Virus record (IMG/VR): IMGVR_UViG_3300045241_000108
Location: 1 to 46,357 of that record
Source: a virus
Length of the DNA stretch: 46,357 nucleotides
Direction: 5' to 3' (one strand)
The notes under the pieces were generated by a model. The model was not told the origin of the DNA and did no database searches. It saw only the letters and a list, made by a program, of their open reading frames with translations. This document shows, in pieces, positions 17,272-30,118 of this stretch (position 1 is the first letter of the stretch; each line of letters begins with the position of its first letter). A program made the translations under genes and the position numbers.

Positions 17272-17502
17272 TCATCCCTCCAATTTTTTGATTGCGTATT
17301 CGCCGGTCTTCCCCGTGGCGATGAGGTAGCGCAGAAAGCGCGCCACCGGTCCCGGCACGGTGCGCTCGTCATCGCGCCAGCGCCGGTGAGTTTTTTCGTC
17401 AACGCCGAGCAGCTCTGACGCCTGCAGCCGCGACAGTCCGAGCTGCTCGATGGCCTTGTTGTACTGGTCGCTGGTCATGCGGGCTGTTTTGTCGAGGGTC
17501 AT
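17272..17502 (-). CDS. Small HTH transcription regulator (paralog of 19660-19854)
   Basis: A 76-residue DNA-binding protein of the XRE/Cro type. The helix-turn-helix is 'RLQASELLGVDEKTHRRWRD', followed by 'DERTVPGPVARFLRYL', a phrase nearly repeated in the protein at 19660-19854. The start at 17502 has a GGAGA ribosome-binding site and makes an ATGA overlap with the membrane-protein gene; a second Met at 17478 is possible. It is third in the recombinase operon, downstream of an operator-controlled promoter, so it may feed back on the same GGGCC-N3-GGCCC sites or oppose the other paralog. DNA binding is clear; target and sign are not. Confidence 0.8.
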   Translation of the reverse strand: MTLDKTARMTSDQYNKAIEQLGLSRLQASELLGVDEKTHRRWRDDERTVPGPVARFLRYLIATGKTGEYAIKKLEG

Positions 17503-17657
17503 AGGTTGCCATCTCCGCGATTGCGAGCATGGAAAGCTAGGAAAGCGATGGCACCCACCGCGTGAACCAAGATGTAGATGCCGACAGCAAGTGCGAAAAC
17601 GTAATCGGTTGCGGTCATGGCTAGGAATGCGTCTCCAGTCACGAGAAGGCCGATCAT
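17499..17657 (-). CDS. Small membrane protein
   Basis: A 52-residue protein with one or two hydrophobic segments ('[20 protein letters not shown]') and a short basic tail ('[10 protein letters not shown]'). The start at 17657 overlaps the recombinase stop (ATGA) with AAAGG eight bases upstream, and its stop overlaps the HTH gene start. The gene is therefore translationally coupled on both sides. A position between recombinase and regulator suggests a lysogeny-expressed membrane protein, perhaps for superinfection exclusion, but this is only an inference. Confidence 0.65.
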
Positions 17658-18858: not shown

Positions 18859-18993
18859 TTGAGAAACCAACTGAGAAACTTTGAGAAACCGGGTGAGAAA
18901 CCGTTGGTACTGCTGCAAAAACACTAATGCAGCAAATTTGGATATTTGTAATTGGATCAACGGTTTCTCAGTACTGGTTTCTCAGTTTCTCAG
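18859..18993. repeat. Inverted iteron array A (unit TGAGAAACC)
   Basis: Four direct copies of TGAGAAAC begin at 18860, 18872, 18882 and 18894; three inverted copies (GTTTCTCA) begin at 18963, 18977 and 18985. The 51-base AT-rich centre between the paired arms (18907-18957) contains its own inverted repeat, TGCTGCA/TGCAGCA (18911-18934). The arms 18871-18906 and 18958-18993 are both 36 bases. The innermost pair matches over 13 bases, and the variant second copy CTGAGAAACT is matched exactly by the outermost inverted copy AGTTTCTCAG. The whole lies in a 282-base gap without a credible gene. Candidate roles are origin iterons, integrase arm sites (attP), a centromere or a structured RNA. Confidence 0.85.
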
Positions 18994-19063
18994 TCATGTA
19001 TGGTCATGTCGTTCCTGCTGCGGTCCAATTCGTTCGCCTTCGTTCTCAACAGGGTCTGCCCCC

Positions 19064-19639
19064 ATGGCGTCGATCATCTGGCTCACGACCCCACGGCCCC
19101 ACTATGGTCCGCGCTGCCCGCTGGGATTTCGCTTTCCTGGCGTCTACCGGATCACCGGTTTCAGTTTTGCGGATGACATGGCCACGGCCAACAGGGAGCT
19201 GCCGGTGACGTACTATTCCCTGAGTGGTGACGATGGACCGATCAAGATCGCAGAACCGGTGTTCACGCCGATCACGCATCTGGATCCGGCGCTTGATGAC
19301 GGTTGGATCATCGTCAAGCATCACCCAAGCCGCGAGATCGCCATGGGCTATCTCGAGGGTCAAATCGACATGGTCGACACTCTGATGAATACCTTCGCCA
19401 GCAGCATGTACCAGGCGCCCGAAGGGCCGTTCACACTGCTGCACCGCAAGCCGCGCCCGACATGCGAAGATCACCTGCTGGTCTTCGTCGCCAACGATCC
19501 AGACTACAGGCCCAGGGGCAGGCCGCCAGGCGCACCTCCCGGCGAGTACTGGTTTCACATCACCCGTGCGAACGGAGAGCTGGCGCCAGAGGGTCTCTAC
19601 GGCAGTGACGAGAACATCCTCTGGCCACAGGAGGACTGA
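19064..19639 (+). CDS. Protein of unknown function downstream of array A
   Basis: A 191-residue protein with no recognised motif. It is beta-rich at first ('GFRFPGVYRITGFSFADDMA'), then helical ('GYLEGQIDMVDTLMNTFASS'), with a Pro/Arg-rich stretch ('PRGRPPGAPPGEYWFH') and an acidic end. The ATG at 19064 is chosen, with AGGG nine bases upstream. A longer frame opens at 18881 but that start is inside array A and its 61 extra residues are Cys/Ser/Trp-rich and unlike the rest. A T-tract terminator follows. Its place next to the array makes a partner role possible. Confidence 0.65.
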   Translation: MASIIWLTTPRPHYGPRCPLGFRFPGVYRITGFSFADDMATANRELPVTYYSLSGDDGPIKIAEPVFTPITHLDPALDDGWIIVKHHPSREIAMGYLEGQIDMVDTLMNTFASSMYQAPEGPFTLLHRKPRPTCEDHLLVFVANDPDYRPRGRPPGAPPGEYWFHITRANGELAPEGLYGSDENILWPQED

Positions 19640-19646
19640 CACAAAC

Positions 19647-19677
19647 AAAACCCCCCAGCTCAAGGCCGGGGTTTTTT
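19647..19677 (+). terminator. Intrinsic terminator
   Basis: An 8-bp stem (AAAACCCC at 19647-19654, GGGGTTTT at 19668-19675) is followed by a six-T run at 19672-19677, directly after the 19064-19639 gene. It overlaps the 3' end of the convergent HTH gene at 19660-19854. Confidence 0.8.
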
Positions 19678-19854
19678 CTTGAGCAGGTGCCGCAGAAATG
19701 AGGCCACCGGCCCCGGCACCGTGCGTTCATCGTACTTCCAGCGCTTGATCGTTCGCTCGTCGACGTCGAGCAGATTGGCTGCCGTGGCCACCGTCAGGGC
19801 GAGGGATTTGAGAGCAGCGTTGAACTCGCTGCTGGGCATGGGGCGTCGAACCAT
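19660..19854 (-). CDS. Small HTH protein, candidate phage repressor, probably leaderless
   Basis: A 64-residue XRE/Cro-type DNA-binding protein with HTH 'VATAANLLDVDERTIKRWKY' followed by 'DERTVPGPVASFLRHLL', shared with its paralog at 17272-17502. Its promoter -10 (TACAAA, 19861-19866 on the minus strand) ends six bases before the ATG at 19854, so transcription should start at or next to the A of the start codon and the mRNA would be leaderless, as lambda cI is from its maintenance promoter. Two operators lie beside the promoter. A repressor role is inferred from this context; the protein lacks a C-terminal oligomerisation domain. Confidence 0.8.
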   Translation of the reverse strand: MVRRPMPSSEFNAALKSLALTVATAANLLDVDERTIKRWKYDERTVPGPVASFLRHLLKKKPRP

Positions 19855-19860
19855 GGGCCG

Positions 19861-19890
19861 TTTGTAGGGCCATAGGCCCCTTGTTGACAA
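19861..19890 (-). promoter_or_regulatory. Leftward promoter of the HTH gene, operator in spacer
   Basis: On the minus strand TTGTCA (19885-19890) and TACAAA (19861-19866) are 18 bp apart, with the operator GGGCCATAGGCCC (19867-19879) in the spacer. It shares its -35 region with the facing promoter through the palindrome CTTGT-TG-ACAAG (19880-19891), so the two promoters probably exclude one another. Confidence 0.72.
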
Positions 19891-19913
19891 GAAGGGCCAG
19901 TGGCCACTACAAA
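19884..19913 (+). promoter_or_regulatory. Rightward promoter sharing its -35 region with the HTH promoter
   Basis: A consensus TTGACA (19884-19889) and TACAAA (19908-19913) are 18 bp apart, with the operator-like GGGCCAGTGGCCA (19894-19906) in the spacer. It mirrors the leftward promoter and points to the secreted peptide gene at 20020 with a leader of about 100 bases. Confidence 0.72.
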
Positions 19914-19929
19914 AGGGCCAGTGGCCACT
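19892..19929. repeat. Tandem operator pair
   Basis: A 17-base segment AAGGGCCAGTGGCCACT occurs at 19892-19908 (with its first A at 19892) and again 21 bp later at 19913-19929, two helical turns apart. The second copy covers the predicted start site of the rightward promoter. A half-site GTGGCCAT follows at about 19945-19952. The spacing would let two repressor dimers bind on the same face. Confidence 0.75.
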
Positions 19930-20019
19930 CGGTCCCCTAATCAAGTGGCCATGCGCGGCGGGGAAAATGCCACATACCCCGTCGCGCACTCAAACGTGGC
20001 GACAACAGGAGGCTGAACC

Positions 20020-20157
20020 TTGAAAAAAATCGCTATCGCTTTCGCCGCATTGTTCACGCTGGTATACGTCACGCAGGCATGGGCCGGATGCCCGATGGGC
20101 ACGCGCTATACTTGCGTGCAGGGCTTCAACGGCAAAGTCGTCTGCAGCTGCTCGTAA
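20020..20157 (+). CDS. Secreted 45-residue four-cysteine peptide
   Basis: A short gene with a TTG start supported by AGGAGG seven bases upstream. 'MKKIAIAFAALFTLVYVTQA' plus 'WA' is a Sec signal peptide; the mature part of about 23 residues, 'GCPMGTRYTCVQGFNGKVVC' followed by SCS, has four cysteines and could form two disulphides. The signal peptide start resembles that of the exported protein at 16915-17268. It has its own operator-bearing promoter and a terminator directly downstream. A lysogenic-conversion, superinfection-exclusion or antimicrobial peptide is possible, but nothing in the sequence decides between these. Confidence 0.75.
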   Translation: MKKIAIAFAALFTLVYVTQAWAGCPMGTRYTCVQGFNGKVVCSCS

Positions 20158-20180
20158 AACCTAGTTTCAGCACCAAAGCA

Positions 20181-20206
20181 AAACCCCCGCCTCTCGGCGG
20201 GGGTTT
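20181..20206. terminator. Bidirectional intrinsic terminator
   Basis: A perfect 11-bp stem (20181-20191 with 20196-20206) around a TCTC tetraloop, with A/T on both flanks so it can act in both directions. It lies between the secreted peptide gene and the convergent integrase gene. Its 26 bases are identical to the core of the terminator at 18802-18831. Confidence 0.88.
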
Positions 20207-20212
20207 CAGTTT

Positions 20213-21364
20213 CTATTTCACCCGCCGGATCCCGGCCGCCTTGCGGCGCGTGGCCTTGTCCTTCGCCTCGATGGCCTCGTTCCATTTGCTCACCACCATC
20301 TCGTTCATGGCAACGCGGTTGGCGTGTTGCGAATAATAATCAGCCATCTCGTTTGACCGGTGACCGGTGACCGTCTTCACGCCGGCGGCGCCGACCATCA
20401 GCTGCGCAACCTCCGAGGCGGCGTTCTTGCGCAGGCTGTGCATCGAGATAGTTTTGGTGCCGCGCTTGGCCAGGCCGATCTTGATCAGGTGGTTGCGGAT
20501 CGACTGGCTCAAGCACATCGCATCTGGCCACGGTTTGCCCAGGGAGCTGGTCAGGATCGTCTCGCCAACACGCGGCGCAGCATTGAGCGCGTCGAGCAGC
20601 GGCTTGGGGCAGAGGTGATAATTCGGCAGCGGGTCGGGGATGGCGTTGGTCTTCTCCGGCGTGACCCAGATGCCTTTGCCGTCGAACTGCGACCACAGCA
20701 TCTTGACGCAGTCACCGCCGCGCTGGGCGCCGAAGTGCAGCAGCAGCTTGGCGAGCTTGAGATGCTCGGGCGCAGTCTGTGCGAACAGCGTCTGCTCGGC
20801 ATCGGTCCACGGTCGCGCCGGGCGCTTCACCTTGTAGCGCAGCGTTGCCTCCTCGACCGGATTGGCGCGGCCCTTGATGCCGAACTCGGGATACTTTTTG
20901 CAAACGCGCCAGATGTTCGACAGCAGGAATATCTGCCGGTCAGCGGCAGAGGCGCAGAACTCTTTTGTGATCTCCTCGCTGTAGAGATCGATCGCATCGC
21001 TGTCGAGATCCGCGAGCGGGCCGGCACCGAGACGCTCGCCGAGGATGTCGAGGGGCCGAGCGTAGATGCGCTGGGTGCTGGGCTTCAGCTCGAGATACTC
21101 AAGCGATGTCTTGTAGCGCATGATGCCCTTGCCGATTGTCCCCTCGCCGATGACGGGGCGTACCACCGGAGCGGCCTTCTTCTTTTTCGTTGGTGATGGT
21201 TGCTGCTTGATCGATTTCAGGCACGCCTCGTACGCGCGCTTGAACTCGACAGAGGTTTCGTCAGCGGGAAGGGGCGTCAGCTTGCCGTCGACCGGCGAGC
21301 GAAAATAAACGTAGGGCTTACCCTTCGCGATCTTTCGGTTCAGGAAGTCCAGCGGCTTTGGCAT
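20213..21364 (-). CDS. int: Tyrosine-family phage integrase
   Basis: A 383-residue tyrosine recombinase that should insert the phage at a host attB site. The catalytic domain carries Arg215 ('FGAQRGGDCVKM'), His309-x-x-Arg312 ('SMHSLRKNAA'), His335 ('VTGHRSNEM') and the nucleophile Tyr343 or Tyr344 ('ADYYSQHANR'). The core-binding domain is at about residues 75-170 and the basic N-terminus ('PTKKKKAAP') may touch arm sites. The start at 21364 overlaps the excisionase-like gene by 47 bases. It shows that the phage is temperate. The attachment site was not identified; array A is one candidate for arm-type sites. Confidence 0.95.
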   Translation of the reverse strand: MPKPLDFLNRKIAKGKPYVYFRSPVDGKLTPLPADETSVEFKRAYEACLKSIKQQPSPTKKKKAAPVVRPVIGEGTIGKGIMRYKTSLEYLELKPSTQRIYARPLDILGERLGAGPLADLDSDAIDLYSEEITKEFCASAADRQIFLLSNIWRVCKKYPEFGIKGRANPVEEATLRYKVKRPARPWTDAEQTLFAQTAPEHLKLAKLLLHFGAQRGGDCVKMLWSQFDGKGIWVTPEKTNAIPDPLPNYHLCPKPLLDALNAAPRVGETILTSSLGKPWPDAMCLSQSIRNHLIKIGLAKRGTKTISMHSLRKNAASEVAQLMVGAAGVKTVTGHRSNEMADYYSQHANRVAMNEMVVSKWNEAIEAKDKATRRKAAGIRRVK

Positions 21365-21617
21365 CGCGTCTCTCTCTCAAAATGCGGTGAACAATATTCT
21401 GCTCACCATGGTCCTTCAGGTTGTCGAAGGCTGCATCGAGATCGAGGCGATCCCACAATTTGATCCCACCCTTGCGGACAGGCTGTGGCATTGTCCCGTC
21501 TTCCACCCACCTGTCGAACGCCGAAGTCGACACTCCGAGGTAGGCTGCAGCCCTCTCGGCCCGCATGGCACGCGGCGGATAAGCCATGCGATCTTGCAGC
21601 TTTTCCGCAACCGTCAT
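21318..21617 (-). CDS. Excisionase-like / AlpA-like HTH protein
   Basis: A 99-residue DNA-binding protein with a winged or MerR-like HTH: 'AERAAAYLGVSTSAFDRWVE' followed by 'DGTMPQPVRKGGIKLWDRLD', the usual layout of phage excisionases and AlpA regulators. The gene overlaps the integrase start, as xis-int pairs often do, so the two are probably co-translated. The start at 21617 follows GGCAGG with a short leader from the promoter at 21631-21660; a Met at 21590 is an alternative. The role in directing excision or regulating int is inferred. Confidence 0.82.
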   Translation of the reverse strand: MTVAEKLQDRMAYPPRAMRAERAAAYLGVSTSAFDRWVEDGTMPQPVRKGGIKLWDRLDLDAAFDNLKDHGEQNIVHRILRERRDAKAAGLPEPKDREG

Positions 21618-21630
21618 CCGAACCTGCCAC

Positions 21631-21660
21631 AATATATCGGGCCAATGGCCCATACGTCAA
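21631..21660 (-). promoter_or_regulatory. Leftward xis-int promoter with operator
   Basis: On the minus strand TTGACG (21655-21660) and TATATT (21631-21636) are 18 bp apart with the operator GGGCCAATGGCCC (21639-21651) between them. The -35 lies in GTCAATAGG, the same nine bases that form the arms of the repeat at 18345-18366. It should drive the excisionase-like and integrase genes. Confidence 0.75.
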
Positions 21661-21848
21661 TAGGGGGTGGGCGACCCGGCGGGGAGGCGCCTGTCCATCC
21701 AACACGCTCCCCCGCCAGGCTTCCCAGGGCAGGCCTCCAGCTCCTCAGATGAGCATTTCCTGCCAAGCGAAACTGTGCGCGCCTCGATGGCCTTGAACGG
21801 GAATGCAAAGACATCCCGTGGGGCCAAGCAAAACCCACAGGCCACCAC
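21657..21848 (-). CDS. Possible small Cys-containing protein
   Basis: A 63-residue frame from a GTG at 21848 with several cysteines ('ACGFCLAPRDVFAFPFKAIE', 'SLGRKCSSEELEACPG'). Its composition is plausible for a small zinc-binding protein and it would lie in the leftward operon, ending inside the xis promoter. No clear ribosome-binding site precedes it and no family was recognised. The stretch 21661-21924 otherwise shows nothing that I can call, so this may be non-coding spacer. Confidence 0.35.
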   Translation of the reverse strand: MVACGFCLAPRDVFAFPFKAIEARTVSLGRKCSSEELEACPGKPGGGACWMDRRLPAGSPTPY

Positions 21849-21924
21849 ACCGGCCCGCAGGCCATCTTTCGATCCCGACAGGCGCGCTTGCCGAGGAGGT
21901 ATTGCCCCCGGTGTGGTGGAAAAC

Positions 21925-22296
21925 TCATGTCACTGCCTCGCACGCAAACAGGTCTTCGCCGCGAACGAGCGGCTCCGGCGCCAGCATCTTGCGCGCCAGC
22001 TTCCTTGCCTGGTGTTCCCGCACGCGCGTGCGATCGATCACCAGCAGCTCGTCGGGGTTGAGGCCGCGCCTTTGCGCAAAGGCCTGCAAGGCCTCCGGCG
22101 TCAGGCCGACTTGTCGAGCAGAAATATTATGGATGGCGTGGTTGAGCCCGAGCCCATGATTGGCGCCGCCGCAGATGCACTCACAGGCTGATCGCCGCGG
22201 CTCCTTGAGCTGCGTCGGCTGCAGCGCGTTGTGGCAGCGCGCATCGCAGAGAGCAATGCAGCGGCGTCGACTGTGCACAGCCAGGACTGTGGTCAT
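21925..22296 (-). CDS. Cys-rich, probably zinc-binding phage protein
   Basis: A 123-residue protein whose first half carries 'CIALCDARCHNALQPTQ' and 'SACECICGGANHGLGLNHAI'. The 'C-x-C-x-G-x-N-H-G-x-G' phrase recurs in uncharacterised small phage and bacterial proteins and looks like a zinc-binding knuckle. The second half is helical and basic ('VIDRTRVREHQARKLARKML'). The ATG at 22296 overlaps the previous stop (TGATG). It is in the leftward recombination/lysogeny operon; nucleic-acid binding is a reasonable but unproven guess. Confidence 0.75.
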   Translation of the reverse strand: MTTVLAVHSRRRCIALCDARCHNALQPTQLKEPRRSACECICGGANHGLGLNHAIHNISARQVGLTPEALQAFAQRRGLNPDELLVIDRTRVREHQARKLARKMLAPEPLVRGEDLFACEAVT

Positions 22297-22577
22297 CACT
22301 GCTCCGGTAGCTGCATGGTGGAGACCATCTCGTCGTAGTCGCGCGCGACCGTCTTGCGCATTTCGACGTGGACGCAATCGAGAATGCGCAGCGCATCCTC
22401 CCTGTCATCGGCCTTGAGCGCCACACAGTTCATCAGCAGGCCGATCGCGCAGCCGGCAACGTCATCGAGCTTGTGGCCGTAGACGACGTACTTAATCTGA
22501 TCGGCCAGGCTCAGCTCCTGGTCCGTTGGCGGCGAAGAGACCGGGCTCGTTTCGTTCAACCTTGTTGCGATAGTCAT
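22296..22577 (-). CDS. Small acidic phage protein, function unknown
   Basis: A 93-residue protein with a folded core ('LADQIKYVVYGHKLDDVAGC', 'AIGLLMNCVALKADDREDAL') and an acidic end. The start is uncertain: the ATG at 22577 makes an 86-base overlap with the preceding gene, and an AGGAG near 22512 could serve a later non-ATG start near the conserved-looking 'LADQIKY'. It is coupled to the next gene by TGATG. No motif was recognised. Confidence 0.6.
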   Translation of the reverse strand: MTIATRLNETSPVSSPPTDQELSLADQIKYVVYGHKLDDVAGCAIGLLMNCVALKADDREDALRILDCVHVEMRKTVARDYDEMVSTMQLPEQ

Positions 22578-22725
22578 CGGCGATCGCCTCCATTGTTTTG
22601 ATCTCGTGCTCCGCATCGCGCATCTTCATCTTGCCGAGCTCGACCCAGCGCGGATAGACGCGCCGGCGCATGCGCAGCTCACGCTCGAGGCACAGGAGCT
22701 TCGTCGCGTTGTCGATCGTCGTCAT
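22492..22725 (-). CDS. Small charged helical phage protein
   Basis: A 77-residue protein dominated by 'LERELRMRRRVYPRWVELGK' and 'DAEHEIKTMEAIADDYRNKV', a helical hairpin seen in many uncharacterised small phage proteins with the pattern 'ELxMRRRVYPxxVxxGK'. The function is unknown. The ATG at 22725 lies inside the end of the upstream membrane-protein gene. Its C-terminus is Gly/Glu/Pro-rich and overlaps the next gene. Confidence 0.72.
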   Translation of the reverse strand: MTTIDNATKLLCLERELRMRRRVYPRWVELGKMKMRDAEHEIKTMEAIADDYRNKVERNEPGLFAANGPGAEPGRSD

Positions 22726-22825
22726 GCGCCACCCTGATGATTGCGCCAAACAGGAACCCGATTGTTGAGCCGACCGCGGTGGCGATCCACAGCCAGAAGA
22801 CAAAACCCCAGACACTGATTGTCAT
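22679..22825 (-). CDS. Small single-span membrane protein
   Basis: A 48-residue protein with one hydrophobic segment ('FVFWLWIATAVGSTIGFLFG', continuing AII) and a charged tail ('RVAHDDDRQRDEAPVPRA'). The ATG at 22825 has GGAGA seven bases upstream. It overlaps the next gene by 47 bases in another frame. It belongs to the leftward operon. A membrane role cannot be specified. Confidence 0.6.
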   Translation of the reverse strand: MTISVWGFVFWLWIATAVGSTIGFLFGAIIRVAHDDDRQRDEAPVPRA

Positions 22826-22837
22826 CAGGCATCTCCG

Positions 22838-23296
22838 TTAGCCCCCAGCCAACGGATTGGTCACGTTGCGCTCGTCGTCGCGTGTTGCTCCCAGCATCTG
22901 CAGCACGCGCTCCTGCTGATCGCCATCTAGGCTGATCATCACTTCCTTGAGGATGTAGTGGCGCGCGTCGTCCCAGAATGTCTCGAGCTCGGCCTGCGTC
23001 ATCGAGTGTTTCGACATAGAGGGCAACACGGTGACCACCTTGGTGCCGTTTCGCAATGTGACGTCGTAGCCGCGGCCGGTCTCGTAGATGATCTCGGCGC
23101 GGAATGTTTTCTCGTCGGCGCCGAGCATCTTGGCGATCTCGGCGATCGTGGCGAACACCTTGCTGTTGAAGGCAGCATTGCGCTCGTGGACGATCTCAAC
23201 ATCGATCGTGTCACCCACCTTGGTCTTCTTGTTGAGAACCTGGCGCGCGTCATCGTTTGCCGGCACCAGCGCTCCCTTGGCGACGTTGAGTTTCAT
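22838..23296 (-). CDS. DUF1367-like phage protein (recombination-associated)
   Basis: A 152-residue protein. 'GDTIDVEIVHERNAAFNSKV' followed by 'FATIAEIAKMLGADEKTFR' matches the style of DUF1367 proteins, in which a 'R-N-x-x-F-H-x-K-F/Y-F-A-L' phrase recurs, here with Asn-Ser in place of His. Such proteins lie beside phage annealing proteins and NinB-type recombination genes. The ATG at 23296 is within the end of the Erf gene in another frame (47-base overlap), showing tight coupling. The biochemical role is not known. Confidence 0.65.
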   Translation of the reverse strand: MKLNVAKGALVPANDDARQVLNKKTKVGDTIDVEIVHERNAAFNSKVFATIAEIAKMLGADEKTFRAEIIYETGRGYDVTLRNGTKVVTVLPSMSKHSMTQAELETFWDDARHYILKEVMISLDGDQQERVLQMLGATRDDERNVTNPLAGG

Positions 23297-24179
23297 TTCC
23301 GTCTCGTAGCTTGCGCAGGCGTTTGTTGATCTCGCGCTCGACGAAGGCATGGTGAGCTGGCAGTGCCTTTTGCAGCTCGACCAGCATGTCCTCGTTCTTT
23401 GCCACCCACTTCTTGGCCAGCTCGAGCGCCGGTACGGCGTTGATCATCATCAGCAGCGATCGCGACCAGTCCTGCCAGTCGCCGCCGGGGACGTGCGGAA
23501 ACTCAAATGGCTTGTTTGGATCGTGAGCTGGCTCCAGTTGTTGCGCCGGCGTTGTTGCTCCGATCTGGGCCCGATCGGTGAAGCGCTGCTTGGGTTCTTT
23601 CTCGTTGGTCACCGCCAGGCCGAGGATGGCGCGCAGCGAGTAGCGCTGCAGGTAGGTCATGGTGGATCCCATCGCCTGCACGGCATTGCGGTTCTGGCCA
23701 ACATCAGGCGGTCCATCGAGCGTCTTCTCGATCGAGTAGCCGTTGCGATGGCACAGCCGGCAGGTGACGTAGATCCTGTTGGGCTCGTGCTTCTCGGTGT
23801 GCTCGGCATCGGGGAAGATTGCGTAGAGGCCATGCCTGCCCAGCACGGGATCGATCTCCGCTGCAATCGCCGCCATCGACTCAAACCTGATCGACTTGCC
23901 GCCGGAGAGACCAATCTCCTGATCCTTGACGATCGGCCGCAGCTCGGCCTTGGCCGCCGCCAGGGCGTTGTTGAACTCGGCCTTCTTCTGCCCGAGCTCA
24001 GCCGCCTCGTAGAGCTTGGCCAGGCGCTCGAGCGTGGCGACGTCGGCGCCCTTGTCGACCGCAGCGCGCAGCAGATCGATCAGCGTGGTCGTCGGTGGTG
24101 TGATGACGGCGCCGTAACCGAACGGCGGACGCGGATCAGCCGCCTGTGGGTCTGTGCCAAGGCTGGGAGGGTTATTCAT
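23250..24179 (-). CDS. erf: Erf-family single-strand annealing protein
   Basis: A 309-residue recombination protein that should anneal complementary single strands made by the adjacent exonuclease. The Erf-like core covers about residues 30-200: 'YEAAELGQKKAEFNNALAAA', 'AAIAAEIDPVLGRHGLYAIF' and 'NAVQAMGSTMTYLQRYSLRA', the last containing the well-known G-S-x-x-T-Y-x-x-R-Y segment. The C-terminal third is charged and variable. It overlaps the exonuclease gene by 8 bases and the next gene by 47. Together they resemble the lambda Exo-Beta pair. Confidence 0.88.
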   Translation of the reverse strand: MNNPPSLGTDPQAADPRPPFGYGAVITPPTTTLIDLLRAAVDKGADVATLERLAKLYEAAELGQKKAEFNNALAAAKAELRPIVKDQEIGLSGGKSIRFESMAAIAAEIDPVLGRHGLYAIFPDAEHTEKHEPNRIYVTCRLCHRNGYSIEKTLDGPPDVGQNRNAVQAMGSTMTYLQRYSLRAILGLAVTNEKEPKQRFTDRAQIGATTPAQQLEPAHDPNKPFEFPHVPGGDWQDWSRSLLMMINAVPALELAKKWVAKNEDMLVELQKALPAHHAFVEREINKRLRKLRDGNETQRRQGSAGAGKR

Positions 24180-24966
24180 CGCCCGCGCTCCTGATTGAGA
24201 GGTGGCCCTTCTTGTTCCGGCTGATGCGGATCTCCTGGTAGAGCAGGCGACCGACGTCTTCCGGCACCAAGGATTTGGCTAACGTGGCCGCCTGCTCATG
24301 GACGCGGTGAGCCTGGTGGGTGGCCCGCCAGTCCATTAGGTGTTCGATCATTTCGGCTTTGTAGTTGGCGTCTTCGGCCTCGAGATTGATCGTGCGCAGT
24401 TTCTCCCACGCCACGAGCTGCGGCAGATGCACCGGCGGCAGCATCGTTTCCATGCAGCGGTGAAACTTGGCGATGCGCTCGAGCACCTCGTCGTAGTAGG
24501 TCTGCTCAAATTCGATCTCGACCTCGACCGGCTCGGCGCCGCCGGCGCTGATCAGCATGATGGCGAGCTCGGCATCCATGCAGGCGCGCTGGATCAGGAA
24601 CTGCGGCGTGTAGAATTGTCTCGCCCAGTCGATCGACCAGGCGGTGCATTTGGCATCGATCACCGCATCGCGCACCGGGTCGTAGGCGTCGAGCGTGCAG
24701 GTGAGGTAGTCGAGCTGCGGATGGCGCAGCACCTCGCCGCGCTCTTCGAACGGGTAGCCGAGCTTGCGCTCGTGCCAGTCGAGGATGAACGGCTCCATGT
24801 AAGCGCCGTGCTGCACCGGCCAGTTGTTGCTGAAGTCAACGGGCGGATCCAGGCCGACGATCTGCCGCCATTTGGCGAGGAGCTGCTCGGGCGCGCCGTT
24901 GACGATGGTCGGCACATCGGAGGCGCCAATCTCGCCGCGCTGTGCGATCTGGCTAGCGGTAAGCAT
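24172..24966 (-). CDS. YqaJ / lambda exonuclease-like recombination nuclease
   Basis: A 264-residue PD-(D/E)XK nuclease. Visible catalytic elements are Glu58 ('GAYMEPFILDW'), Asp93 ('YLTCTLDAYD') and Asp104-x-Lys106 ('DAVIDAKCTAW'), in the order and spacing of YqaJ-type viral recombinases; 'MLTASQIAQRGEIGASDVPT' at the start is the family's usual substrate-recognition helix ('R-x-x-x-I-G-A-S-D-x'). It should resect double-strand ends to give 3' tails for the Erf protein downstream. The start at 24966 overlaps the HTH gene by 14 bases. Confidence 0.88.
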   Translation of the reverse strand: MLTASQIAQRGEIGASDVPTIVNGAPEQLLAKWRQIVGLDPPVDFSNNWPVQHGAYMEPFILDWHERKLGYPFEERGEVLRHPQLDYLTCTLDAYDPVRDAVIDAKCTAWSIDWARQFYTPQFLIQRACMDAELAIMLISAGGAEPVEVEIEFEQTYYDEVLERIAKFHRCMETMLPPVHLPQLVAWEKLRTINLEAEDANYKAEMIEHLMDWRATHQAHRVHEQAATLAKSLVPEDVGRLLYQEIRISRNKKGHLSIRSAGDE

Positions 24967-25168
24967 CGGGCAGGTTCTTGATGTAGCGCAGGACAGAGAA
25001 CTCGTTGACCAGCAAGCGCCGGCCAAAGCGCTTGATCTCGAGATCACCCTGGATCCGGCGAAGATGACGATCACTGCAGTGAAGGATGGCGCAGGCTTCG
25101 CGCGGCGTGATGGGCTTAAACTTCCCGTTGCCGCGCGCTCTGCGGCGCGTGGTTTTCTTTTTACGCAC
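24953..25168 (-). CDS. Small HTH DNA-binding protein, first gene of the leftward operon
   Basis: A 71-residue basic protein. After 'MRKKKTTRRRARGNGKFKP' it has an excisionase/MerR-type HTH, 'PREACAILHCSDRHLRRIQG', and a wing-like end ('FGRRLLVNEFSVLRYI'). A GTG start at 25168 is chosen because GGGAGG lies six bases upstream; a TTG at 25195 is also in frame. It is the gene nearest to array B, so it is a natural candidate to bind those sites and control both operons or an origin. That link is inference only. Confidence 0.72.
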   Translation of the reverse strand: MRKKKTTRRRARGNGKFKPITPREACAILHCSDRHLRRIQGDLEIKRFGRRLLVNEFSVLRYIKNLPDAYR

Positions 25169-25660
25169 GGCAAACCTCCCTGGCACTCGAGCCAAGTTCT
25201 ACCGATCACGCGCGATTGGTTTTCGCGCGCGTTTGCATGCTCGTGTCTGCGTAATTGTGCGACGATTGGTCGCCCGTACTGCTTTTTACACCGGGAGAGC
25301 CTAGTTAGTTCCGCCTAGGGCACTAGCCCGATGGCTGTATTAAGAATGCTTACTACCGGAAAGAGTTGATATGGATCAACGGCATTTTTCAAGATGTCAA
25401 AATTTTCACAATCACATGAATGGTGTGTTCAGCCGAACCCAATACCGCACACGATACCGGACAGTAGCGGACCTGAGAGGACTGGAGAGGACTCGAGCGG
25501 ACAACGTCAGTAATGCTGGCGTGAATACTTTCCCAAAAAATATTTTTTTCATGTCCGGTACAGTCCGCTCCAGTCCGCTGTCGCGGTTTGACAATGATCG
25601 CACCGCGCTCGCACCATCACACACCTCCAGCTCCTCGACTGATCATCATGACGACAGCTC
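25169..25660. other. Non-coding divergent junction
   Basis: A 492-base gap between the leftward recombination operon and the rightward replication operon. It is clearly more AT-rich than the surroundings. It holds a palindrome GTTGAT-ATGG-ATCAAC (25365-25380), a GGGC-ACTA-GCCC repeat (25318-25329), array B (25457-25586) and an isolated TTGACA at 25588-25593 without a good -10. Open frames crossing it run through the array and have unnatural composition. It must contain the promoters of both operons, but I could not place them with confidence. Confidence 0.7.
25457..25586. repeat. Inverted iteron array B (10-bp unit, core GGAC)
   Basis: Five direct copies with GGAC cores at 25459, 25469, 25479, 25489 and 25499 are exactly 10 bp apart (for example AGAGGACTGG, AGAGGACTCG). 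Three inverted copies with GTCC at 25553, 25563 and 25573 are also exactly 10 bp apart (CAGTCCGCTC, CAGTCCGCTG). The centre of about 50 bases contains the AT-only palindrome AAAAAATATTTTTT. A perfect 10-bp pitch puts all sites on one helix face. The place between recombination and replication operons suits an origin of replication or a shared control site. Confidence 0.85.
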
Positions 25661-26107
25661 ATGCAGCACGGGCAGCTCACTCTCTTTGGCAAGCGCCAGC
25701 GTAAGAAGCGCGCCGCTCCCGAATTTAATCTGCATGTCCTGATCGCCGACATCCTCAATCGCTGGGGCACACCCGACTGGCGCTGGACGCACCTGCCGTT
25801 TGGCGAACATCGCAACGCGATCACCGGCGCCAGGCTCAAGCGCATGGGCACCAAACGCGGCTGGCCTGATTTTGTTTTGCTGTCGCCGCGCGAGCATCTG
25901 GTGGATGGCGAGGTGTGGCGCTGGCCCTTTGGCAAGGCACACTTCCTCGAGCTCAAGCGCAAGGGCGCGCAACTCAGCGACGACCAGGCCGAGCTCGGCG
26001 CCTGGCTCATGGACAATGGCTATCCGTACCGCGTTGCCGACAACTTCGACGAGGCTCTTACCATCCTTAAATGCTGGGGCGCCGTGCGCGTCAGTGTGTC
26101 GGCATGA
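25661..26107 (+). CDS. VRR-NUC domain nuclease
   Basis: A 148-residue PD-(D/E)XK nuclease of the VRR-NUC type. 'TKRGWPDFVLLSP' gives Asp70 and 'AHFLELKRKGAQLSDDQ' gives Glu97-x-Lys99, followed by the usual 'Q-x-x-x-x-x-L-x-x-x-G' end ('AELGAWLMDNGYPYRVADN'). Phage VRR-NUC proteins act on branched DNA such as Holliday junctions or replication intermediates. It is the first gene of the rightward replication operon; its ribosome-binding site is weak. The next gene overlaps its stop by 4 bases. Confidence 0.85.
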   Translation: MQHGQLTLFGKRQRKKRAAPEFNLHVLIADILNRWGTPDWRWTHLPFGEHRNAITGARLKRMGTKRGWPDFVLLSPREHLVDGEVWRWPFGKAHFLELKRKGAQLSDDQAELGAWLMDNGYPYRVADNFDEALTILKCWGAVRVSVSA

Positions 26108-26607
26108 GAAACGAAGACATCCGTATTGAGCTCGACTGGTACAGCATCTCGCGCGCCGCACAGATCGGCTGCATGCGCCAGATCGACGCGCTGCAGAATA
26201 ATTATCGATTGAAGAACAACGTCGGCGAGAGCGACAGCTGGACGCTGCACATCGAGGGCGCCGCCGGCGAGCTGGCGACGGCAAAGCGCTTCAACGGCTA
26301 CTGGCCCGCTCTCGTCGGCAATCCCAGAGCGCCAGACGTCCGCATCAACGGGCGATGGTGCGAGGTCAAGACCAACAAGAGCCGCCAGTGGACTGACCTG
26401 ATCGTCGGACACGATGATCCAGACGACTATCCCTACATCGGCGTGCTCAGTTTCCTGCCGGTCTTCATCATCACCGGTTGGTTGCCGGCGGCAGAAATCA
26501 AACTCGCAAAATGGTGGCGTGATCCGGTCGGTGGCCGGCCGGCATACTTTGTGCCGCGCGATGAGCTCCGGCCGATGGAAGAGCTACTCAAACAGGAGGC
26601 AGCATGA
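26104..26607 (+). CDS. Putative second PD-(D/E)XK nuclease-like protein
   Basis: A 167-residue protein starting at an ATGA overlap. 'IEGAAGELATAKRFNGYW', 'RAPDVRINGRWCEVKTNK' give Glu56, Asp78 and Glu87-x-Lys89, the E...D...ExK arrangement of the PD-(D/E)XK fold. The rest ('PYIGVLSFLPVFIITGWLPA', 'WWRDPVGGRPAYFVPRDEL') is like a domain that interacts with DNA or partners. It follows another such nuclease, so the two may handle different replication structures. Family membership is an inference from the motif only. Confidence 0.7.
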   Translation: MRNEDIRIELDWYSISRAAQIGCMRQIDALQNNYRLKNNVGESDSWTLHIEGAAGELATAKRFNGYWPALVGNPRAPDVRINGRWCEVKTNKSRQWTDLIVGHDDPDDYPYIGVLSFLPVFIITGWLPAAEIKLAKWWRDPVGGRPAYFVPRDELRPMEELLKQEAA

Positions 26608-27020
26608 CGACCACCCTACTAAACGGTAGCCAGACCGATGAAGAGGCCCAGCGCGGCGTCCTGGCGCTGTCGACTATCGTCAACCAGCGCAACGATCTGC
26701 TCAAGGCAAACGACCGGCTTAACGCCGACAACATGCTGATGCGCGAGCGTATTGCGCAGCTCACGTCGCGGCTCGAGACCGCCACAAGCGAGCGCGATCA
26801 CTACATGAATTTCAGCACTGAATTGGTCTCGCGTCTGTCGAGCATCGATATGCTGATCAAGAGCGCGGTCGAAGAGGCGAAGCACTCAGCCTATCGACCG
26901 CCGATCGTGCCGCCGCCGTTGCCCAAAGAACCGGGCGTCTCCGAGCAGGATACGGCGGCGATCGCCGCTCTTCTCAAGCGACTGCCGCACAATGGCGGCA
27001 GTGAGGGGAGCAGCGAATGA
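26604..27020 (+). CDS. Coiled-coil phage protein
   Basis: A 138-residue protein. Residues of about 15-90 form a long coiled coil ('QRNDLLKANDRLNADNMLMR', 'RLETATSERDHYMNFSTELV'), then a Pro-rich hinge ('RPPIVPPPLPKEPGVSE') and a short helical end. The ribosome-binding site is GGAGG and the start overlaps the previous stop. Its place in the replication operon suggests a scaffold or partner for replication or nuclease proteins. No family was recognised. Confidence 0.7.
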   Translation: MTTTLLNGSQTDEEAQRGVLALSTIVNQRNDLLKANDRLNADNMLMRERIAQLTSRLETATSERDHYMNFSTELVSRLSSIDMLIKSAVEEAKHSAYRPPIVPPPLPKEPGVSEQDTAAIAALLKRLPHNGGSEGSSE

Positions 27021-27226
27021 ACGTCATCAAGGGAACGAGCGCGCTCACCAAGGGCGCGGTGTGGATCTGGATCGATCAGATCGTATCGATGAACACCAAC
27101 CAGGGCGGTGGTGCCGTCATCCACACCGCTGACGGGCAGACCATCGCGCTCAACGAGAAGCCCGACCATGTGCTCGAGACGATCCGCGAGCTGAAAAAAA
27201 TAGAACGCCTCGAGGAGACCGCGTGA
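27017..27226 (+). CDS. Small beta-rich protein
   Basis: A 69-residue protein beginning at an ATGA overlap. The sequence 'AVWIWIDQIVSMNTNQGGGA' followed by 'GQTIALNEKPDHVLETIREL' suggests a small beta-sheet with a final helix, similar in layout to FlbD- or LytTR-like mini-domains. No catalytic residues are visible. It is one of a run of tightly coupled small genes before the primase. Confidence 0.65.
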   Translation: MNVIKGTSALTKGAVWIWIDQIVSMNTNQGGGAVIHTADGQTIALNEKPDHVLETIRELKKIERLEETA

Positions 27227-27507
27227 TGTCGAACATTCCCATTGCCCGCGCACACTTGCGCGCTGCCATCCAATATCACGCCGACGACGCCGCCTATCTC
27301 TGCAAGTCGATCGAACTGGCGCTCGCTTACATGACGCGCGAGCGGCCGAAGTTTGTGGCCGAGGTCGAGCTGCCGCCGCTGACCGATGCGCAGCGTGTGA
27401 TCGCCAACCAGTTGCGCTACGGCAAGCACTGGTCGCTCAACCGCATCGCTACCTTCCTGCACACCAACATCGGCCGCGTGTCTACGGCCGTGAACGGGAA
27501 AGGCTGA
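27226..27507 (+). CDS. Small helical protein with HTH-like end
   Basis: A 93-residue protein (start ATG 27226; a GTG at 27223 is possible). The N-terminal half is helical ('RAHLRAAIQYHADDAAYLCK'); the C-terminus 'GKHWSLNRIATFLHTNIGRV' has the layout of an HTH with a recognition helix. It lies five bases before the primase. It may be a replication-operon regulator or an initiator-like protein, but this is conjecture. Confidence 0.65.
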   Translation: MSNIPIARAHLRAAIQYHADDAAYLCKSIELALAYMTRERPKFVAEVELPPLTDAQRVIANQLRYGKHWSLNRIATFLHTNIGRVSTAVNGKG

Positions 27508-27511
27508 CGCG

Positions 27512-28432
27512 ATGAACGCAGCTCAAATCGCCCAGGCGCTCGGCGGCAAACGTAGCGGCAACCAGTGGAAGTGCCGTTGCCCGGCGCATGACGACAACGA
27601 TCCCTCGATGATCGTGTTCGACGGGAAACATTCTGTGCAGGTGCGCTGCTATGCCGGCTGCGATCCGCTCGAGATCATCGCGGCGCTGCGCTCGCGCGGC
27701 TTGTGGGGTGAAGACGCTGACGTGGACTATTCTACTGAACCGCGCAGCCTGGTCGAGGCGAGGCGGGCGGATCCCGACCGTCACCACAAGCTGGCGATGA
27801 AGATCTGGGAAGGTTCGGCTGACGCGGCCGGCACGGCGGCAGAGCATTACCTCCACGGCAGAGGCTTGGTGCTTCCGCCAAAGGCTTCCGAGGTCATCGG
27901 CTATCATCCGCGCTGCCCCAACGCACAGCTGCGAGCACCTGCCTTGGTGGCACTGATGCGAAACGTGGAGACCTTCAGGCCGCAAGCCATCCAGCGGCTG
28001 TTTCTTGATCTGGATCAAAACAAAAAAACCGAAAGCATGATGCTCGGTCCCGTGGGCAACGCGGCGATGATGATCACCTCGAGGCACGATACGTTCTGGG
28101 ACTGCCTCTCGTTCTGTCCCAGGCTCTACGTTTGCGAAGGCCTGGAGACGGGACTAGCTCTGCACCAGGCAGGGCATCATCCGGTCTGGGCGCTCGGCTC
28201 GGCCGGCGCCATCGAGCGGTTCCCGGTAATCTTTGGGGTTGGCCAGATCGTCATCTGCGCCGACAATGACAACTCGAGCATCGGCCTGCAGTGTGCGATC
28301 ATTTGTGCCGCGCGCTGGAACGCCACATCGCACCAGAAGGCAACGATCGTGATGCCGCCGTCGACCGGCGCCGATTTTGCCGACGTGCTCAACGTCCTGC
28401 GAAGGGAAGAGATTGATGCCGCACTCGCATGA
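27512..28432 (+). CDS. Toprim-type DNA primase
   Basis: A 306-residue primase. The N-terminal zinc knuckle has Cys21, Cys23 and His26 ('WKCRCPAHDDNDPSM') and Cys46 and Cys50 ('RCYAGC'). The Toprim domain carries Glu209 ('LYVCEGLETGLA') and Asp251-x-Asp253 ('IVICADNDNSS'), the metal-binding acidic residues for RNA primer synthesis. It resembles the small phage and plasmid primases that work with a separate helicase, here encoded directly downstream with a 17-base overlap. No phage DNA polymerase is seen, so host polymerase probably extends the primers. Confidence 0.9.
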   Translation: MNAAQIAQALGGKRSGNQWKCRCPAHDDNDPSMIVFDGKHSVQVRCYAGCDPLEIIAALRSRGLWGEDADVDYSTEPRSLVEARRADPDRHHKLAMKIWEGSADAAGTAAEHYLHGRGLVLPPKASEVIGYHPRCPNAQLRAPALVALMRNVETFRPQAIQRLFLDLDQNKKTESMMLGPVGNAAMMITSRHDTFWDCLSFCPRLYVCEGLETGLALHQAGHHPVWALGSAGAIERFPVIFGVGQIVICADNDNSSIGLQCAIICAARWNATSHQKATIVMPPSTGADFADVLNVLRREEIDAALA

Positions 28433-29663
28433 CGATGAGCCATTTCCGCCAGAAGGCTGCGAGGTGATCACACCCGATGATCCGCGCTGGCAGGAGGCCG
28501 AGCGCAGGATGGCGCGCAAGGACAAGGGCAATGGCGCCGGTGAGCAGCACGAGGAGCCCGAGCTCCTCGACATCAAGGCCGAGATCCACAGGCGCGAGTG
28601 GAATATCGAGGATCATATCCCCGCCAACAACGTGACGCTGCTCAGTGGTGAGGGCGCCGTGGGCAAATCAATTCTGGCGTTGCAACTGGCGGTCTGTACG
28701 GCGCTCAACGCGATTTCGCAGATTGATCACGACTGGATCGGGCTGTTGCCGAAAGGTGGCCCGGCCTTGGTCATTTCCTGCGAGGAAGAGGCCGACGAGA
28801 TGATCCGCCGGCTCGAGGATACCGTGCAGCATTACGGCGCGACCAGGAGAGATCTGGTCGAGCATCTTTTCATGTGTTCATGGGTCGATGCCGACAACAC
28901 GCAGTTGGCCCGACTCGACAGGCGCAATGATACGATCGTGCAGACCGAGCTCTACCAGCGTTTGCTGCTTTCGGTGATGCGCATCAAACCGCGGATTATC
29001 GTGCTCGATACGGCGGCGGATCTCTTTGGCGGCAACGAGATCTCACGCAGCCACACACGCGCCTTCATCGCCATGGTGCGGCGCTTGGCGATCGCGGCGT
29101 GCAACAACGCCAGTGTCCTGCTGCTCACCCATCCATCGCTTGAGGGCATCCGGTCGGGCAGCGGGTTGAGCGGCTCAACCGCATGGCACAATTCGGTGCG
29201 CGCACGCTGTGTGTTCAAGCATTTCAGCGAGAAGGATGGCGACGACGACGCCGAGCCCGATCGGGATCTGCGTATTCTCGAGTGGCGCAAGAACAACTAC
29301 GGCCCGCCGCGCGACACTGCCACGCTGCGCTGGAAGGCCGGTGTGTGGGTGGTAGAGGGCGGTGGTGCCGACACGCTCGAGCAGCAGCTGCGCTGGCGCA
29401 ACATTGATGCGATGTATCTGGATTGTTTGCGCAAACGCCTCGAGCAGCAGCGGCCGGTCTCGGACAGGCCAGGCAAGAACTACGCGCCAACCGAGTTTGC
29501 CGACATGCCGGCGGCGCGAGACGCCAAGCCGCGCATCACCAGCAATGATTTCAGGAAGGCGATGGATCGCCTGTTCGACAGCGGGCGCATCGTGGTGAAA
29601 ATCGAAGGATCCGCATCACGGCAACGGCGATGCATCGTGGAGGCGGTGGCGGCACTTCTGTAG
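28416..29663 (+). CDS. RecA-fold replicative helicase / RepA-like ATPase
   Basis: A 415-residue P-loop protein. Walker A is 'LLSGEGAVGKSILALQ' (residues 76-90) and Walker B 'RIIVLDTAADLF' (Asp198). 'SVLLLTHPSLEGIRSGSGLS' is like the motif-4 and arginine-finger region of RepA/DnaB-like hexameric helicases (AAA_25 type). The C-terminal 100 residues are an extra helical/winged domain. The start at 28416 has AAGGGAAG upstream and overlaps the primase end. The pair forms the replisome core of the phage, and array C begins three bases after its stop. Confidence 0.87.
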   Translation: MPHSHDDEPFPPEGCEVITPDDPRWQEAERRMARKDKGNGAGEQHEEPELLDIKAEIHRREWNIEDHIPANNVTLLSGEGAVGKSILALQLAVCTALNAISQIDHDWIGLLPKGGPALVISCEEEADEMIRRLEDTVQHYGATRRDLVEHLFMCSWVDADNTQLARLDRRNDTIVQTELYQRLLLSVMRIKPRIIVLDTAADLFGGNEISRSHTRAFIAMVRRLAIAACNNASVLLLTHPSLEGIRSGSGLSGSTAWHNSVRARCVFKHFSEKDGDDDAEPDRDLRILEWRKNNYGPPRDTATLRWKAGVWVVEGGGADTLEQQLRWRNIDAMYLDCLRKRLEQQRPVSDRPGKNYAPTEFADMPAARDAKPRITSNDFRKAMDRLFDSGRIVVKIEGSASRQRRCIVEAVAALL

Positions 29664-29665
29664 CC

Positions 29666-29801
29666 TGCCAACGCACTACCAACGCCCATACCAACGGTTA
29701 CCAACACCTACCAACGCATGTGTGTGCATACCCCCCCTATACCCCCCCCCGCGTTGGTAGCGGCACGCGGTCGTTGGTAGTAGACCCGCCGCCACCAACA
29801 C
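29666..29801. repeat. Inverted iteron array C (unit TACCAACGC)
   Basis: Direct copies of TACCAAC(G) start at 29677, 29689, 29699 and 29709, preceded by a variant TGCCAACG at 29666: spacings of 11, 12, 10 and 10 bp. Inverted copies CGTTGGTA start at 29752 and 29772, 20 bp apart. The centre of 33 bases has two long C-tracts (seven and nine C) around TATA. A degenerate direct copy CCACCAACAC follows at 29792-29801. It fills the gap between helicase and the next gene. An origin next to the replication genes is the simplest reading. Confidence 0.85.
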
Positions 29802-29824: not shown

Positions 29825-30118
29825 ATGGGAAGATCAAGAGGTAGTGGAAACGCAGCCTGGAGAGCATCGAGAGCACAAACAGCTGGGCTCAAGAGGTGCA
29901 GACAATGTGTGGCGATCAAGAAGGATGGTCAGCAGTGCAGAGCTCCAGCTATCAGAGGGTGGCACCGCTGCTACAAGCATGGTGGTCAGATGGTGATAGG
30001 CCGCAGGAGATTAGCCGCAGCTCAGAGGTTGAAGCATGGCAGGTTCACACAGAAGTCAACGAAGGAAATCCCTGCGAGACGAAGTAAGAGACGCTCTGTT
30101 GGCCATGCTGCGCGATAA
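29825..30118 (+). CDS. Zinc-finger protein of the 'LKHGRYT' phage type
   Basis: A 97-residue basic protein. 'LKRCRQCVAIKKDGQQCRAP' followed by 'AIRGWHRCYKHGG' is a four-Cys zinc finger plus the His-Gly-Gly motif, and 'AAQRLKHGRFT' is close to the 'NALKHGRYT' phrase found in small prophage proteins of alphaproteobacteria. The ATG at 29825 has GGGAGG six bases upstream; a longer frame from 29630 runs through array C and is rejected. It probably binds nucleic acid and may be the protein that recognises array C, but this is not shown. Confidence 0.78.
   Translation: MGRSRGSGNAAWRASRAQTAGLKRCRQCVAIKKDGQQCRAPAIRGWHRCYKHGGQMVIGRRRLAAAQRLKHGRFTQKSTKEIPARRSKRRSVGHAAR

Follow-up and report, generated by a model that had tools for sequence, protein, structure and literature searches.

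The window analysed here is the virus record IMGVR_UViG_3300045241_000108, taken at its full length of 46,357 bases. It is a temperate phage, with genes for a P22-like portal, a tyrosine integrase, a serine recombinase, the recombination proteins ERF and YqaJ, VRR-NUC, a primase and an AAA_25 ATPase, and it carries three arrays of short repeats (iterons), A, B and C, each built from direct copies, a centre and inverted copies. Array C, which sits right after the stop codon of the AAA_25 helicase gene, is probably a replication origin, one whose iterons change fast while its C-tract core is conserved. The homology, geometry, core, linkage to replication genes and swap described below were all computed, and from these we infer both the origin function and the binding protein. 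An even chance seems fair for the broader proposal that the core, CCCCCC(T)ATACCCCCC, is an undescribed element common to origins that use unrelated initiators (AAA_25 helicase, O-like, DnaD-like and primase-helicase), and that the AAA_25 helicase reads its own iterons, the two shifting specificity rapidly and together with geometry and core preserved. In addition, it is quite likely that the three arrays are functionally different protein-binding sites, with A being a phage attachment site (attP), B an operator array and C the replication origin.

Array C and its helicase

The five forward and two inverted copies of array C surround a centre of 33 bp, and a further forward near-copy, CACCAAC, follows the inverted half at about position 29791. 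Relatives were retrieved with the portal and YqaJ proteins of the window, and the records G001-G004 were read; these are collinear with the window, so that homologous gaps can be compared. Between the helicase stop and the start of the small HGG zinc-finger gene we found TTCAGACTG in G1, CTACGATCG in G4 and TGCGCCAGT in G2. A first-pass annotation of this DNA had proposed that relatives might show the repeat word drifting while copy number, pitch and orientation are kept, and this largely held for array C and only partly for array B. No phage isolates with close DNA similarity to the window were found.

An alignment of three helicases extended the comparison to 57 viral and 80 bacterial-genome loci. 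Counting arrays with copies on both strands that lie no more than 430 bp from the helicase stop codon, and leaving out those with direct copies only, we found one at 64 of 136 AAA_25 loci; shuffles gave 11 of 680, and windows taken from other parts of these loci 28 of 673. The words of these arrays vary widely and their pitch peaks at 10-11 bp, with a distance of 44-45 bp from the last forward to the first inverted copy in the window, G4, L031 and L034. Homologous arrays with direct copies only occur at L039, L069, L091 and L046. Between their halves, most AAA_25 arrays carry the pattern C5-7 (T)ATA C5-9, which is the core given above; it was present at 56 of 75 array loci, compared to 7 of 690 shuffles and 1 of 478 elsewhere. 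A freshwater myovirus whose RepA is annotated follows the same plan, built there from TGGGACA in six forward and two inverted copies. Just past the AAA_25 stop in L036, L039, L045, L089 and L091, a C tract and a G tract forming a hairpin (CCCCCTAAAGGGGG and similar) replace the two C tracts, and we regard this hairpin as an alternative core.

By sequence and by fold, the AAA_25 protein falls within the RSF1010 RepA family of RecA-fold hexameric helicases: RepA is its sole sequence match in the PDB (1g8y, E 2.5e-8) and its top Foldseek match (1nlf, E 1.4e-13). The resemblance of this closest solved helicase, which goes with the RepB primase and RepC, extends to the primase gene adjacent to the phage helicase. 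Unlike RSF1010 RepA, the phage helicase adds a C-terminal winged helix, predicted at a pLDDT (predicted local distance difference test) of 90, or a Prim-Pol fusion, and no RepC-like initiator was found beside it. In relatives the helicase is fused to Prim-Pol or Toprim.

Helicase and array C have been exchanged together in G2, which compared to the window has kept the primase (83%) and the HGG protein (70%), whereas the helicase (34%) and the array word are replaced. Across 40 loci, iteron word similarity follows helicase similarity, with r 0.68 for the ATPase domain and 0.60 for the winged helix. In the pair L031 and L032, the ATPase domains stand at 94% and the winged helices at 57%, and the words differ (TGCGAACT and TTCCAACG arrays); only single pairs such as this point toward the winged helix as the reader of the iterons. 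In the mechanism we propose, the RepA-like hexameric helicase would bind the iterons flanking the core, its own C-terminal winged helix being the most likely contact, and would be loaded at array C in both orientations. Strand opening or priming would take place at the core, a sequence found again in the origins of quite different initiators. Helicase and iterons would form one cassette, with a recognition word that is quick to change and a geometry and core that are retained.

The core in other replication systems and the readings of array C

We also started from the core itself. Exact searches of viral contigs for CCCCCCATACCCCCC and CCCCCCTATACCCCCC gave at least 189 usable sites, and among the matches listed, to which all counts in this paragraph refer, iteron arrays were found at 49 of 189 core sites compared to 1 of 189 shuffled. 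An AAA_25 gene lies beside only 14 core sites. Where a core bears an array, the gene around it or before it matches PHROG families for replication initiation, O-like, DnaD-like loader, primosomal, primase and helicase proteins; control genes drawn from other parts of these contigs gave hits such as repressors and terminases. Within O-like genes the core falls in frames 0, 1 and 2 in 9, 8 and 4 cases, respectively, where it is translated as PPIPP, TPHTP or PPYPP; since it is read in all three frames, the constraint acts on the DNA. Pasteurella phages that share 98% of the O protein have a gene for a P-like loader next to it, which puts the element at the known place of the lambda origin, whose iterons lie inside gene O. 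At L250, L264 and L285 the plan of arrays A to C occurs in an O-like setting, where the initiator gene contains the core as well as four forward and two or three inverted GGTAACGC iterons.

Like lambda ori and the plasmid iteron origins, array C has several direct iterons, three or more, within or next to the gene for an initiator or a helicase. The likeness to lambda ori extends to the O-like relatives, whose array lies inside the O gene and is often followed by an AT-enriched stretch, seen beside the core in several of them. In contrast to these known origins, array C has the C-tract core, an inverted second half and units that differ between close relatives, and the AAA_25 type shows no clear AT-rich element, nor was a separate initiator seen. 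Known iteron origins contain an AT-rich unwinding element, and because none was seen at array C in the window we hold back formal membership of the class; array C would work like an iteron origin, with its origin activity being a prediction.

Several observations weigh against array C being an origin of the kind proposed. Its centre is GC-rich in the window, where the lowest GC content over 40 bp is 50%, and GC skew was uninformative as an origin test of the window. About a quarter of the AAA_25 arrays, including that of G2, are without the exact core and, among the matches listed, 140 of 189 core sites show no array at the threshold used. Finally, once the ATPase domain is accounted for across the 40 loci, no effect of the winged helix is left (partial r -0.04, p 0.74), so that the cassette is to be taken as helicase plus array, and the winged helix as a putative reader.

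Since autoregulation is common for iteron arrays and array C is placed between two co-directional genes of one operon, it might instead be an operator or termination control site regulating the replication operon. We consider this improbable, however, because the array lies behind the helicase gene rather than ahead of a promoter, because it is linked to replication genes of four unrelated kinds, and because O-like phages hold the same core and iterons within the initiator gene, as the lambda origin does. The linkage to helicases, initiators and primases also makes a parC-like partition centromere barely credible: iterons of 10-11 bp do flank a centre, at a pitch resembling that of ParR sites, but the family matches of the flanking genes include no partition ATPase or adaptor gene. 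The first-pass annotation had additionally offered a cruciform or RNA hairpin as the common principle of the arrays, with the inverted plan existing for base pairing. This idea breaks down at array C, which folds no better than shuffles (z -1.3), and is at odds with the homologous arrays that have direct copies only, with the unequal numbers of forward and inverted copies, and with the changes between array A and its homologue in G003, which are located in spacers. RNA folding of arrays A and B is better than that of shuffles (z -8.8 and -5.8, respectively), as expected of any inverted array, and a hairpin or cruciform function is very improbable.

Searches of the literature on AAA_25/RepA, phage origins, iterons and the literal core revealed no description of the proposed origin, although they covered open-access text only and so provide weak evidence. 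Array C apparently represents a widespread class of phage origin with changeable iterons and an undescribed C-tract core. To our knowledge, the origins of most environmental phages have not been identified, and the core motif together with an iteron array next to a helicase gene makes origins findable from sequence. Fast iteron change with kept geometry also provides a natural set of matched protein-DNA specificities, and raises the question of whether phages alter their origin words to evade satellites or resident prophages that would otherwise exploit or block the origin.

Arrays A and B and the shared plan

All three arrays are present where the first-pass annotation had placed them, and they lie far above chance. 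A scan for at least five copies of a 7-mer, on both strands and within 170 bp, returned array A, array C and one palindrome cluster (19784-19951), with about 0.05 arrays like A and C expected per window from dinucleotide shuffles; array B is degenerate and was therefore missed. The annotated pitch of 10-12 bp applies to the forward copies and not to the inverted ones, which are 21 bp apart in array C and 14 and 9 bp apart in array A. Searches of the window against Rfam and for tRNAs gave no match. A further suggestion, that the arrays are one kind of element, did not survive comparison: A goes with the integrase, B with a divergent early control gap and C with the replicative helicase. A single element in three copies was rejected because neighbours and relatives differ among the arrays. 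Instead, the same plan seems to serve integration, control and replication, as a convergent architecture for cooperative DNA-binding proteins; cooperative binding on one helix face is the best remaining common reading of the arrays, with no single element common to them.

Table 1. Coordinates of the three arrays and of the genes associated with them in the window
Feature	Position	Strand	Remarks
Array A forward half, four copies TGAGAAAC(C)	18860..18902	+	Starts 18860, 18872, 18882, 18894; P-arm-like candidate integrase sites; same in G003
Array A centre TGCTGCaaaaacactaaTGCAGCA	18911..18934	.	Inverted core-type sites; candidate attP crossover region; G003 nearly identical
Array A inverted half, three copies GGTTTCTCA	18962..18992	-	Starts 18962, 18976, 18985; P'-arm-like candidate sites, integrase side
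Tyrosine integrase gene	20213..21364	-	Pfam Phage_integrase; PHROG integrase
Small HTH_17 protein (excisionase/BldC-like class)	24953..25195	-	First gene of leftward operon; PF12728, E 4.7e-6; candidate array B binder
Array B forward half, five GGAC units	25459..25502	+	Exact 10-bp pitch; starts 25459, 25469, 25479, 25489, 25499
Array B centre	25503..25552	.	Dyad CGTCAG..CTGGCG followed by CCCAAAAAATATTTTTTT; AT-rich; conserved in relatives
Array B inverted half, three units	25553..25576	-	GTCC at 25553, 25563, 25573; exact 10-bp steps
DNA primase	27512..28432	+	CHC2 zinc finger, DUF7146, Toprim_3
AAA_25 replicative helicase, RSF1010 RepA-like	28416..29663	+	C-terminal winged helix; sequence, fold and family matches
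Array C forward half, five iterons T[A/G]CCAACGC	29666..29717	+	TGCCAACGC 29666, TACCAACGC 29677, TACCAACGG 29689, TACCAACAC 29699, TACCAACGC 29709
Conserved core CCCCCCCTATACCCCCCCCC of the putative origin	29731..29750	+	Shared with relatives
Array C inverted half, two iterons	29751..29779	-	29751-29759, 29772-29779
Small HGG zinc-finger protein, 3' of array C	29825..30118	+	No Pfam or PHROG family match; conserved in G1, G2 and G4; not swapped with array

Array B is probably an operator array, a reading that we hold with modest confidence. It fills the divergent gap between a leftward operon, which starts with the HTH_17 gene, and the rightward replication operon. Its run of five units at a 10-bp pitch was reached in 0 of 2000 shuffles, and the centre spans about 50 bp. 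The counterpart in G1 has six AGTG units in a 10-bp step, and G2, G3, G4 and L016 have a common third, irregular type; the dyad and the CCCAAAAATATTTTT stretch of the centre are kept in relatives, with 26-32 of 46 positions identical. Among the leftward-operon proteins compared, HTH_17 has diverged furthest, at 52-64% versus 65-82% for YqaJ and ERF. BldC, RdfS and lambda Xis form head-to-tail filaments of winged helix-turn-helix (HTH) proteins with one DNA turn per subunit (PMC11963761). Array B likewise has direct units one DNA turn apart and a small winged-HTH gene adjacent to it, and the HTH_17 protein would most likely fill the array head to tail. It differs from the BldC, RdfS and Xis systems (PMC11963761) in its mirrored second half, and binding by its HTH_17 is a prediction. 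Counting against an operator array, only three unit types are known and the G2/G4 type is without a clean 10-bp run. A search for further relatives of array B yielded none that were new. The conserved AT-rich centre could alternatively be the unwinding element of a second origin, or array B a recombination site, and it does open the replication operon. We find this possible but doubtful, given that no replication initiator adjoins array B and that the gap separates two divergent operons with small HTH genes alongside.

Array A, in which a 9-bp word is repeated in opposite orientations on either side of a core (copies also cited as TGAGAAACC), is best read from its sequence context as attP, with the two sets being arm-type sites of the tyrosine integrase that would flank the crossover core. 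It combines repeated arm-type sites on both sides of a core with a position beside the integrase gene; the forward steps are 12, 10 and 12 bp and the centre measures about 59 bp. G003 retains the array, its word and four-plus-three plan unchanged, directly adjoining the integrase terminator, while in the window an insert of about 1.1 kb separates the array from the integrase gene. Four homologous integrases (35-44% identical) from Bradyrhizobium genomes are followed directly after the stop by one to three direct copies of other words (TGGAAAACC, TGGGAAGTC, CTGGTAAGT), which run into [C/A]GTTGAT or a variant and then into host DNA. In two cases this DNA holds what we take, from our own reading of the translations, to be genes like erpA and glmS. 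These integrase-side half arrays would fit attL or attR halves. Compared against Bradyrhizobium, the core of array A gave nine identical 3-mismatch matches in one conserved gene and the control two matches. Inverted arm-type repeats, with words varying among related phages, have been described in mycobacteriophage attP sites (PMC3203893). As in the attP of CrimD (PMC3203893), array A has short arm-type sites on both sides of a core, one side inverted, with words that differ among relatives, and it departs from CrimD in having 4 + 3 rather than 2 + 2 sites and in that no attB was found for it. The missing attB weighs against an attP, as does the second att end, which was not found in the two genomes searched.

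Two small HTH genes nearby (17272-17553 and 19660-19848) would allow array A to be an excisionase or repressor operator rather than a set of integrase arm sites. This is decidedly improbable: the nearer HTH gene has palindromic operators of its own, AGTGGCCACT, and sits in the insert absent from G003, where array A is still right beside the integrase gene, and the homologous integrases bear half arrays at the same spot.

The DNA at 19050-20176, missing from G003, contains the nearer HTH gene, its operator and terminators, and we view it as a regulatory cassette inserted between the putative attP and the integrase gene. Two full AGTGGCCACT palindromes and one half lie at 19895-19952, just upstream of this gene, and are likely an auto-regulatory operator. 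In the matching region of G1 (L021 6080-6200), GGGCCANTGGCCC repeats were observed. The two small HTH genes flanking array A are paralogous, sharing a DERTVPGPVA motif and matching the same PHROG families.

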